Positions 37,809 to 61,331 of a stretch of 64,000 nt of DNA are shown one piece after another. Every line of letters begins with the position of its first letter. Position 1 is the first letter of the stretch. The stretch is from Leucobacter luti (GTDB lineage: Bacteria; Actinomycetota; Actinomycetes; Actinomycetales; Microbacteriaceae). The position numbers were made by a program, and so were the translations under genes. The stretch is taken from positions 124,001 to 188,000 of the forward strand of contig NZ_SHKI01000006.1 in NCBI RefSeq assembly GCF_004217175.1, given 5' to 3'. The notes under the pieces were generated by a model. The model was not told the DNA's origin. It ran no database searches and was given only the letters and a program-made list of their open reading frames with translations.

Positions 37809-38846
37809 ATGCAGGTCTCCCCACTCCCCACCCTTCCCAGCAGGCTCGCCACGCGCGGCGTCGAGGTGCTCCCCGGCACGCTCCTGTGCGCGGCGATCGC
37901 CGCGGTCTCAACGGTGATCGGGTCCTTCCTCCCGATGCTCGGCTCGGCGATCCCCGCCGTGGTGATCGGGGTCCTGGTCGCACTGGTCCGCACCCCGGGC
38001 CCGCGGCTGCGGCCGGGGATCGGGTACTCCGGGAAGTTCGTGCTGCAGTGCGCGGTCGTGCTGCTCGGCGCGCAGCTCTCGCTCGCGAGCATCGTGGAGG
38101 TGGGGGCCGAGTCGCTCCCCGTGATGCTCTCCTCGCTCACCGTGTGTTTGCTCGGCGCCTGGCTGCTCGGCCGCGCGCTCAAGATCGACCGCGACCTCAC
38201 CGTGCTCGTCGGCGTCGGCACCGGGATCTGTGGCGCCTCGGCGATCGCGGCGGTCTCGCCGGTGATCAAGGCGAAGAGCGCCGACATCGCGTACGCGATC
38301 TCCACCGTGTTTCTCTTCAATATCCTGGCCGTGCTGATCTTCCCCGTGGTGGGCCACGCGCTCGGGATGACCCCGCACGCCTTCGGGCTGTTCGCCGGGA
38401 CCGCCGTGAACGACACGAGTTCTGTGGTGGCCGCCGCGAGCGTGTTCAGCGCCTCGGCGCTCGGGTTCGCGGTGGTGGTGAAGCTGGTGCGCACGCTGAT
38501 GATCATCCCGATCAGCATCGGACTCGCGGTGATGGAGGGGCGGCGCTCCGGCGAGGGCGAACGATTCACGCCCCGGCGCGTGCTGCGCCTCGTGCCCTGG
38601 TTCCTTGTCGGATTTCTCGTCGTCGCGACGCTCACGTCGCTCGGCGCCGTGCCGGCCGCCGCTGCCGACCTGCTCACCCAAGTCAGCGTGTTCCTCGTGG
38701 CGACGGCGCTCGCCGGGATCGGCATGTCGACCGACCTGCGCGCCATCCGCACTGCGGGGCTGCGGCCGCTGCTGCTGGGCGGGATCCTGTCCGTGCTCGT
38801 GGCGAGCACCACGCTCGGCGTGATGGCGCTCACCGGCGCGTTCTAG
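37809..38846 (+). CDS. YeiH family putative sulfate exporter
   Basis: This 345-residue protein of the YeiH (UPF0324) family has about ten membrane helices. The conserved block VGVGTGICGASAIAAVSPVIKAK lies near residues 135-157, in its typical place, and FAGTAVNDTSSVVAA near 197-211. The family is annotated as a putative sulfate or organosulfonate exporter on indirect evidence. The divergent LysR gene is the likely regulator. A weak GAAAG precedes the ATG. Confidence 0.85.
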   Translation: MQVSPLPTLPSRLATRGVEVLPGTLLCAAIAAVSTVIGSFLPMLGSAIPAVVIGVLVALVRTPGPRLRPGIGYSGKFVLQCAVVLLGAQLSLASIVEVGAESLPVMLSSLTVCLLGAWLLGRALKIDRDLTVLVGVGTGICGASAIAAVSPVIKAKSADIAYAISTVFLFNILAVLIFPVVGHALGMTPHAFGLFAGTAVNDTSSVVAAASVFSASALGFAVVVKLVRTLMIIPISIGLAVMEGRRSGEGERFTPRRVLRLVPWFLVGFLVVATLTSLGAVPAAAADLLTQVSVFLVATALAGIGMSTDLRAIRTAGLRPLLLGGILSVLVASTTLGVMALTGAF

Positions 38847-38907
38847 GGGGCTTGGCGCCCTGCCTGGTCCTGCCTCGCTCGCCCTGCCGCGTCGCGAGGT
38901 GCTCGCT

Positions 38908-38965
38908 TGCTCAGCTGCGCCCCTGCTCAGCTGCACCCCTGCTCGTCGGCCTTGCTCGTCGGCCC
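38908..38965. repeat. Short tandem duplications (16 bp x2, 13 bp x2)
   Basis: TGCTCAGCTGCGCCCC (38908-38923) is followed by a copy with one change (38924-38939). Then TGCTCGTCGGCCT (38940-38952) and TGCTCGTCGGCCC (38953-38965) follow. All begin with TGCTC. This opens the 520-nt non-coding stretch between yeiH and the sirtuin gene; 38847-38907 shows nothing else. Confidence 0.85.
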
Positions 38966-38979
38966 TGCCGCCCGCCCAT

Positions 38980-39040
38980 GTCGAGTGGACCCAAATCCCC
39001 CCTGCGGTGCCTCGTGTGGGAAGTTTGCCTACACTCGGCG
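38980..39040. repeat. Hairpin repeat, copy 1
   Basis: This is the first of three related palindromic units of about 57-61 nt. The outer stem CGAGTG/CACTCG (38982-38987, 39032-39037) encloses an inner CAAA/TTTG pair and a C-run/G-run pair. Its outermost pair would be T-G in RNA. It is followed at once by a 9-bp tandem array. Confidence 0.9.
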
Positions 39041-39041
39041 G

Positions 39042-39104
39042 GTGAGGCTCGTGAGGCTCGTGAGGCTCGTGAGGCTCGTGGGGTTCATGGGGTTCGTGGG
39101 TCCA
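39042..39104. repeat. 9-bp tandem array (GTGAGGCTC)
   Basis: Four perfect GTGAGGCTC units are followed by three degenerate ones (GTGGGGTTC, ATGGGGTTC, GTGGGTCCA), keeping the 9-nt period over 63 nt. Confidence 0.9.
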
Positions 39105-39111
39105 ACCAAGC

Positions 39112-39168
39112 CGAGTGGAGCCAAATCGCCCCTTGCGGTGCCTCGTGAGGGGTGTTTGCCTACACTCG
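39112..39168. repeat. Hairpin repeat, copy 2
   Basis: The stems are CGAGTG/CACTCG, CAAA/TTTG and CCCC/GGGG. The extra outer pair is C-G here (CCGAGTG/CACTCGG), where copy 3 has T-A. Confidence 0.9.
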
Positions 39169-39170
39169 GC

Positions 39171-39224
39171 GTGTGGTGCGTGTGGTGCGTGTGGTGCGTG
39201 TGGTGCGTGTGGTGCGTGTGGTGC
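39171..39224. repeat. 9-bp tandem array (GTGTGGTGC x6)
   Basis: Six perfect GTGTGGTGC copies follow hairpin copy 2 directly. The unit is different from the array after copy 1 but has the same 9-nt period. Confidence 0.95.
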
Positions 39225-39251
39225 GGGTGGGGCTCGCGGGTCCAGCCCGTG

Positions 39252-39310
39252 TCGAGTGGAGTCAAAATCCCCCTTGTGGTGGCTCGAAGGGGGCTTTTGG
39301 CTACACTCGA
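39252..39310. repeat. Hairpin repeat, copy 3
   Basis: The stems are TCGAGTG/CACTCGA, CAAAA/TTTTG and CCCCCTT/AAGGGGG. T-runs flank the inner stem on both strands, so this copy could work as a bidirectional terminator between the convergent yeiH and sirtuin genes. Confidence 0.9.
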
Positions 39311-39350
39311 CGGGCGACGGGCGACGGGCGACGGGCCACGGGCCACGGGC
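39309..39350. repeat. 7-bp tandem array (GACGGGC)
   Basis: Four GACGGGC and two CACGGGC units follow hairpin copy 3 directly and end 17 nt before the 3' end of the sirtuin gene. Confidence 0.9.
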
Positions 39351-39366
39351 AGCGCGCGCCCGCACC

Positions 39367-40182
39367 CTACGGCACCAGCAGCCCGGCGAGCTCCGAGAGC
39401 GTCTCGGTGGTGCCGCCCTCGATCCGCACGCTCGCGCGCGAGTCGGCGCCGGTCGGCCCGCGGTTGATCACGCCGACCGGGATCCCGCGCCGTTCGGCCC
39501 GGTGCAGCAGCCGCACGCCGGTGTTGACCGCGAGCGAGGTGCCGGCAACGATGAACGCGCCGGCCTCGGCGACGAGGTGCTCGGCTGCGGCGAATACCCC
39601 GGTGGGCACGACTTCCCCGAAGTACACGACGTCGGGGCGGAGCATGCCGCCGCACACGGGGCACTGCGGCACGCGCACCCCGGCTACCTCGGCGACCTCC
39701 GCGTCGCCGTCCGGGTTGATCGGGGCCCCGGCGTGCGCCTCCGCGTAGCCGGGGTTGCCCACGTCGAACCAGTGGAGCACCTCGGTGCGGCTCCAGCGCG
39801 AGCCGCAGTCGATGCAGCGGATGATCGATCCGTTGCCGTGCAGCTCGACGACGGTGCGCGAGCCCGCCCGGCGGTGCAGCCCGTCGACGTTCTGGGTGAT
39901 CACGCCCTCGATGCGCCCGGCCGCCTCGAGCTCGGCGAGCGCCACGTGCCCGGCGTTCGGCGCAATCGTGTGCAGTGGGCCGTCGCCGAGGCGCGCGCCC
40001 GCCCAAAACCGCTGGCGGTAGGCGAGATCGCTGGTGAACTGGGAGATGTTCATCGGAGTGCGCGGCGGTGTGCCCGCCCCCCGATAGTCCGGGATCCCGG
40101 AGTCCGTACTGATTCCCGCCCCCGTGAGCACGGCGACGGGTCCGTTCGCGAACAGCTCCGCGAGGTCTCCCACCTGATTCAT
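39367..40182 (-). CDS. Sir2-family NAD-dependent protein deacylase
   Basis: This 271-residue sirtuin removes acyl groups from lysines using NAD+. The motifs are [15 protein letters not shown] (about residues 21-35), TQNVDGLH (about 97-104) and four zinc-binding cysteines (CIDC near 122-125 and CPVC near 167-170). [10 protein letters not shown] and the final INRGPT block are also visible. RBS GGAGGG precedes the ATG, with a TAGGCT -10 box about 22 nt upstream, so this gene does have a short 5' UTR. It diverges from nothing; its 3' end faces the hairpin array. Confidence 0.94.
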
Positions 40183-43960: not shown

Positions 43961-44008
43961 ACGCCGCGAGGCCCGGACGCATCTGCGTCCGGGCCTCGCG
44001 GCGTTTTT
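43961..44008 (+). terminator. Intrinsic terminator after pyrE
   Basis: A 21-bp perfect stem (43961-43981 with 43984-44004) is followed by TTTTT (44004-44008). This is the strongest terminator in the window. Confidence 0.95.
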
Positions 44009-61296: not shown

Positions 61297-61331
61297 CTGG
61301 CGGGCCCGGCCGTCTCGGCCGGGCCCGCCAG
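61297..61331 (+). terminator. Large hairpin after the PotD-type gene
   Basis: A 15-bp perfect stem (61297-61311 with 61317-61331, 5-nt loop) lies 9 nt after the stop codon. No U-run follows; it can protect the upstream mRNA end or reduce read-through into the CaiB gene. Confidence 0.65.

Follow-up and report, generated by a model that had tools for sequence, protein, structure and literature searches.

A dispersed palindrome of near-constant length at gene ends in Leucobacter luti and other Microbacteriaceae

Introduction

Three similar hairpins lie between two convergent genes of Leucobacter luti, and they raise the question of what such a unit is and what it might do at the end of a gene. 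The preliminary description of this DNA offered three answers: bidirectional terminators, a REP-like element, or remnants of a non-autonomous mobile element. Mitra is said to have described I-shaped terminators in actinobacteria in 2009, and how GC-rich actinobacteria end their transcripts is disputed. The reason is that these genomes contain few U-rich tracts, a scarcity stated in passages of a study of actinobacterial 3′ ends (PMC8914203). Here we analyze the window, that is, the whole stretch of 64,000 nucleotides in which the hairpins lie, and follow the hairpins through the L. luti genome, its genus, the family Microbacteriaceae, and the class. We consider it rather probable that the unit is a dispersed palindromic hairpin that serves gene ends from both sides, with a 57-bp core, 24-bp arms, and a loop of about 9 nt.

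Results

Three palindromes between convergent genes

Three hairpin units layered as CGAGTG/CACTCG, CAAA/TTTG, and C-run/G-run are present as the preliminary description had claimed, and its placement of them between convergent yeiH and sirtuin genes is borne out by gene calls and Pfam (Table 1). The junction between the PF03601 gene and the sirtuin gene measures 520 nt. In the window, the arm pattern matches six times, at three places on both strands, whereas shuffles lead one to expect 0.14. When RNA folding was compared with shuffled sequences, copy 2 gave z scores of -5.2 and -4.8 on the two strands and copy 3 gave -5.9 and -5.6, and the signal of copy 1 was weak (z -2.0; 0.1 on the minus strand). 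The outermost pair is T-G, C-G, and T-A in copies 1, 2, and 3, and this had been taken as compensatory change and as evidence of structure. Across the 49 copies found in the genome, however, the pair is Watson-Crick in 28, where shuffling leads one to expect 28.9, so it provides no evidence of structure.

A consensus scan of positions 38800-39420 found no canonical terminator. In Rfam, only a tRNA scored above the gathering threshold in the window and no family matched the palindromes; at a relaxed threshold, positions 38850-39370 and the elements of 11 loci gave only eukaryotic miRNA models below gathering. Among the loci of other genomes, an msiK RNA match above the gathering score adjoins a palindrome in genome G032 (L059:1380-1439, minus strand), and a TPP riboswitch match in genome G008 (L246:2144-2244, plus strand) falls just below it (54.0 against 54.3 bits). 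The window also holds other strong palindromes at 43961-44004 and 61297-61331, with 20-nt and 16-nt arms and of ordinary terminator size.

Table 1. Palindromes, tandem arrays, and flanking genes of the junction (window positions)
Feature	Position	Strand	Description	Source
PF03601 gene (yeiH of the preliminary description), convergent left neighbor	37809..38846	+	E 8e-76	Gene call; Pfam
Tandem array before copy 1	38908-38944	+	16-nt unit	Tandem Repeats Finder
Tandem array before copy 1	38937-38968	+	13-nt unit	Tandem Repeats Finder
Palindrome copy 1	38982..39037	no strand	56-nt core; 62.5% of 24 arm pairs Watson-Crick	
Tandem array behind copy 1	39042..39098	+	9-nt unit GTGAGGCTC, 6.3 copies	Tandem Repeats Finder
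Palindrome copy 2	39112..39168	no strand	57-nt core; 62.5% of 24 arm pairs Watson-Crick	
Tandem array behind copy 2	39169..39230	+	9-nt unit GCGTGTGGT, 6.9 copies	Tandem Repeats Finder
Palindrome copy 3	39253..39309	no strand	57-nt core; 83% of 24 arm pairs Watson-Crick	
Tandem array behind copy 3	39308..39350	+	7-nt unit CGACGGG, 6.1 copies	Tandem Repeats Finder
SIR2-family gene (sirtuin), convergent right neighbor	39367..40182	-	PF02146, E 5e-37	Gene call; Pfam

Copies across the L. luti genome

The arm pattern finds further places in the L. luti genome beyond the window, and a reversed control pattern has no match in the whole genome. With a covariance model built from 21 copies, we detected the palindrome in at least 49 places (98 matches over both strands); like the other hairpin copy counts given here, this is a lower bound because scoring covered a part of the first-look candidates (here 150 of 1951). 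None of the 49 copies lies inside a gene called by our codon-usage script, and three overlap a gene end by 10 nt. They are spread over 29 intergenic regions, of which 15 separate convergent genes, 12 tandem genes, and 2 divergent genes. The convergent share is higher than among the other adjacent gene pairs of the window (8/48, p 0.002); of the nine convergent pairs in the window, one has the element. Copies fill 59 alignment columns in 47 cases and 58 in two, and the nearest facing stop codon is a median of 137 nt away (47 copies). At the convergent sites, the left flanks lean toward C (skew -0.10) and the right flanks toward G (0.12).

Arrays of two to four copies stand in 12 regions, and array copies pair less completely than single ones (0.75, n = 32, versus 0.85, n = 17; p 0.003). 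The three window copies are of the array sort. Short-unit tandem repeats are present in 24 of the 29 hairpin-bearing regions as against 8 of 37 other regions of at least 100 nt on the same stretches, and they make up 3395 of 15565 bases in the former and 400 of 7691 in the latter. The window copies and their tandem repeats apparently form an array in decay.

Pairing within the genome is uneven along the arm. In the inner columns 16-25, pairing exceeds that of shuffles (none of 2000 as high), and columns 8-12 reach 0.64 versus 0.59 in shuffles (p 0.047, 49 copies), in both cases counting Watson-Crick pairs only. The CGAGTG end letters are 94.9% conserved in the 26 copies detected by the model alone; the pattern required exact ends in the other 23 of 49, where conservation is 100% by construction. 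Clean covariation within L. luti was sought in 21 copies and proved weak, its score being reached by 12 of 500 shuffles, and two-sided pair changes did not stand out from shuffles (340 of 500). This weakness is explained by columns 8-12, of which several variants exist, intermixed between the left arm and the right.

The same shape with other letters in relatives

Among 54 genus genomes, the strict arm pattern occurs in the L. luti genome only, and it has no match in named genome contigs and none in viral contigs, sets that possibly lack L. luti records. A first covariance model (R1) matched L. luti and 10 of 53 other genus genomes, mostly in palindromes equal in length but different in letters. 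In an alignment of 29 sequences (18 from relatives, 11 from L. luti), 24 of 25 pairs changed on both sides, 92% of cells are paired, and covariation is 0.602 versus 0.155 in shuffles. Selection on a folded structure, as the preliminary description had proposed, is thus supported by these two-sided changes and by the inner columns 16-25, but not by the outermost pair on which that proposal was built. Our covariance-model search and pair counts, used instead of R-scape, found both other copies and covariation, and the proposal stands to that extent.

A second model (R2), whose training included L. luti and eight of the other genus genomes matched, found the palindrome in 15 of 41 genus genomes, among them six that contributed no training sequence (G004, G005, G017, G034, G047, and G049); the matches seen in G004 and G017 are shorter, at 50-52 nt. 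Across the family Microbacteriaceae, R2 matched at least 75 of 249 genomes and 43 of 85 genera, a lower bound set by scoring 22 candidates per genome, and across the class it matched 22 of 296 genomes, 17 of the 22 outside the family. One genome of another genus in the family (G479:C17:219351-219649, L267) has three matches at an exact spacing of 120 nt, a tandem array as in the window.

A set of 52 matches from relatives, counted without L041, L053, L085, L086, and L089 and taken from the best-matching loci, are 59 nt long in 38 cases, 58 in 11, 60 in 2, and 57 in 1. Over the same set, the fraction paired reaches 0.98 at column two, 0.48 at column one, and 0.23-0.48 beyond the element; the pairing and the constant length are inflated because the loci were picked by structural models, but the absence of pairing outside was not selected by them. 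A palindrome scan, which like the outside pairing and the loop identities given below depends less on this choice of loci, found at least 17 arm positions in 34 of 40 loci and none of that size in L228, L233, L234, L240, L241, and L256, and in L232 the palindrome reported is another one, beside an imperfect R2 site. Locus L269 is left out of the analysis. Other Leucobacter palindromes range from 32 to 84 nt, so the constant length holds for this type and not for every palindrome of the genus.

Position at gene ends

Of 48 best matches from relatives (the five loci named above and also L054, L088, L100, and L107 excluded), 22 lie between convergent genes, 15 between tandem genes, and 6 between divergent genes. 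The other 5 have open-ended or uncalled surroundings or fall within a called gene. Facing stop codons are a median of 26 nt away (59 distances). In genome G379, which belongs to another bacterial family, designated f10, R2 gave 69 matches at roughly 35 sites. Nineteen of its 20 better-scoring sites, all but L314, comprise 11 convergent, 6 tandem, no divergent, and 2 open-ended positions, at a median of 6 nt from facing stop codons (28 distances). Many of these elements almost fill the junction, with AAAA-stem-TTTT inside. The motif TTTGCGTC occurs in 27 of 40 arms of f10 elements; outside f10, few arms have the CGT motif (1 of 98 in L. luti and 12 of 104 in relatives). In Streptomyces griseus, 293 of 2,115 transcript 3′ ends carry a GC-rich stem, CGT, and an adjacent T-rich motif, according to passages of PMC8914203, and that motif is similar to TTTGCGTC. 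We also considered whether the f10 elements are linked to a published mycobacterial motif under the name 'tuboligo', and rejected this after neither the name nor, among the papers listed, the arm strings gave a link in the open-licence literature.

The junction in other species and the question of mobility

Sirtuins of the five closest named Leucobacter are 80-82% identical to that of L. luti. Among 37 sirtuin loci examined, both genes stand side by side in five, always convergent, and the PF03601 gene is 84.6-88.3% identical in these five relatives with the same junction. The junction is 12, 33, and 13 nt long and contains no palindrome in Leucobacter sp. 7(1) and two L. chromiireducens subspecies, and it contains one palindrome of other sequence in sp. 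PH1c (224 nt) and L. chromiireducens LYC-2 (163 nt). The element is therefore dispensable at this place, and the junction palindromes were either gained in L. luti or lost in the three relatives. At the loci L145, L146, L150, L160, L161, L166, L169, and L174, the sirtuin 3′ end has long palindromes that differ between Leucobacter species, and L. chromiisoli (L150) has nearly the same 58-nt palindrome twice within 7 kb.

Such differences between junctions, from 520 nt with three copies here to 12-33 nt with none in three relatives, two more having one palindrome each with different letters, could also arise if the unit were a REP- or MITE-like non-autonomous palindrome, moved by a transposase that we did not recognize, tolerated at gene ends as the least harmful places and acting in termination only incidentally. 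We regard this as possible but doubtful. The arrays of two to four copies in 12 regions agree with it, and so does genome G032, where a pair of elements agrees at all 58 nt, including the loop, with unrelated DNA on either side (95.8% over a 72-bp alignment), the only clear sign that the unit has been copied. On the other hand, the Y1 transposase (Y1_Tnp, RAYT) was found neither in L. luti (0/1) nor in any of the 54 genus genomes, with E. coli positive as a control, so that REP proper fails: RAYT-driven REP was ruled out, and spread by a REP-type transposase is excluded within the limits of the Y1 family. Among 48 elements, no target duplication was convincing, with flush matches of 4 nt or more in 0-1 cases; flush flank matches of 2 nt numbered 12 against 5.3 expected and those of 3 nt 4 against 1.3. 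The REP-like element of the preliminary description thus keeps its dispersal and gene-end position but lacks the Y1 transposase, and the mobile remnant has the identical pair in its favor and the lack of a convincing target duplication against it.

Like arms and free loops

Paralogous copies speak against recent copying as well. In genomes G051 and G012, which belong to two related species, the arms of the copies are 0.92 and 0.88 identical (13 and 9 copies) and the loops, in the same orientation, are 0.34 and 0.31 identical, where chance gives 0.275 and 0.262; the copies were chosen by part of the arm, which inflates the arm identity but not the loop identity. Fresh copying would not yield the arms and loops of G051. 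The arm of these two species, within three mismatches, occurs in no other of the 54 genus genomes, and both arms stand about 30 nt apart in 33 of its 37 places in G051 and G012 (up to three mismatches).

Like arms around free loops would be expected if a species-specific protein read the arms as sequence, for chromosome organization, as a roadblock, or in a similar role, with the hairpin irrelevant. The CGAGTG ends kept in the model-only copies of L. luti, with columns 8-12 pairing near chance, agree with such a binding site, and so does a lean toward the origin in two genomes, with 13 of 22 palindrome sites in G051 and 12 of 18 in G012 no more than 0.6 Mb from dnaA (p about 0.01 for either genome). 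Yet gene-end positions are not expected of it, and in G032 the palindrome scan found copies with several different arms, each a near-perfect palindrome, which argues that pairing is kept beyond sequence. We think this reading quite unlikely. Together, the like arms of G051 and G012 and the differing palindromes of G032 suggest that pairing is held and that in some species the arm letters are held too. A terminus-bound, matS-like role for the sites in G051 was also considered; they seemed centered on the terminus, but dnaA sits in the middle of the cluster, and the idea was rejected. G051 has a second palindrome family (L119:606-663, L124:2486-2535, and L125:5465-5522) with outer arms near GCGGGTCA, a variable loop, and a length of 50-58 nt.

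Inverted repeats that arose by chance or by slippage in intergenic DNA rich in GC and in repeats, a reading that the tandem repeats in 24 of 29 hairpin regions versus 8 of 37 others might favor, are very improbable and were rejected, given six matches versus 0.14 in shuffles, none for the reversed control, 49 places in the genome, and covariation across species.

Discussion

The element is a repeated, intergenic palindrome that is enriched between convergent genes, stays palindromic under compensatory change across species, and is absent from the sirtuin junction in three relatives. The function that it most likely fits is that of a two-way terminator or 3′-end hairpin, dispersed like REP but without the REP transposase, because of its gene-end position in relatives, its symmetry, and an inner stem followed by a T-run from both sides. 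Bidirectional termination, one of the proposals of the preliminary description, fits the positions (15 of 29 regions convergent in L. luti, medians of 26 nt in relatives and 6 nt in f10), but the consensus scan of 38800-39420 gave it no canonical terminator. Also weighing against it are the 137-nt median in L. luti, the single convergent pair out of nine in the window that has the element, the empty junction of three close relatives, and the scarcity of CGT arms beyond f10.

For the two-way hairpin, we propose that transcripts arriving from either side would form the inner GC-rich stem and then a short U-tract (AAA...TTT) within the palindrome, and that they would be terminated or trimmed at that point. 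Read from either direction, the outer arm would show one and the same motif, which a species-specific factor may bind. In L. luti, local multiplication may have given rise to arrays of the element next to short tandem repeats, where the copies, including the three in the window, would be decaying.

The constant length and the like arms around free loops go beyond what termination alone would explain. A bolder and only tentative suggestion is an actinomycete-wide system in which a trans-acting factor would recognize a gene-end palindrome of about 57-60 bp, with arms and factor changing together from species to species, about 20-50 places per genome, and free loops, the L. luti arrays being decaying members. 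Probable two-way hairpins of near-constant length, matched by one model in 43 of 85 genera of the family and in other families, offer a defined set of sites for work on actinobacterial termination, and the contrast between like arms and free loops raises the question of what keeps paralogous arms alike while sister species differ.

REP and BIME elements with RAYT are dispersed extragenic palindromes, and the Leucobacter element resembles them in its dispersal, its gene-end positions, and its clusters. It differs in its length and arms and in that none of the 54 genus genomes has a RAYT (Y1_Tnp). Functions of PU-BIME are mentioned for REP-type elements in passages of PMC2267715. The uptake-signal terminators of Neisseria and Pasteurellaceae, as portrayed in part of PMC1852404, are alike in having a species-specific motif, hairpins made of inverted pairs, and positions mostly between convergent genes. 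The same part of that paper counts at least 1,000 uptake motifs, for the most part not in pairs (1,892 motifs and 231 hairpins in N. meningitidis Z2491), whereas the Leucobacter-type element is found in 18-49 places per genome, with paired arms in 33 of the 37 places of G051 and G012.

Palindromic motif pairs between convergent genes of other bacteria, in passages of PMC5217627, and the stem-loop repeat families in passages of PMC2267715, including Myt-1, Myt-8, and Myt-9 of M. tuberculosis, are likewise repeats with a palindromic form, many of them intergenic and close to 3′ ends; no Leucobacter or Microbacteriaceae family appears in those passages of either source. The open-licence papers on Leucobacter palindromes are unrelated by title and the opening of the abstract, and no description of this palindrome family was found in the open-licence literature. 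With the uptake-signal terminators, the motif pairs, and the stem-loop families, the kind of element is already known, and it is this Leucobacter and Microbacteriaceae family for which that literature gave no description. Among the intrinsic terminators of actinobacteria, the 3′-end motif of S. griseus in passages of PMC8914203 would find its counterpart in the GC-rich stem of the element and an adjoining T-rich sequence with CGT, the CGT being common in f10 arms and rare in L. luti; unlike those terminators, the Leucobacter element is symmetrical, of near-constant length, dispersed, and equipped with outer arms of its own.
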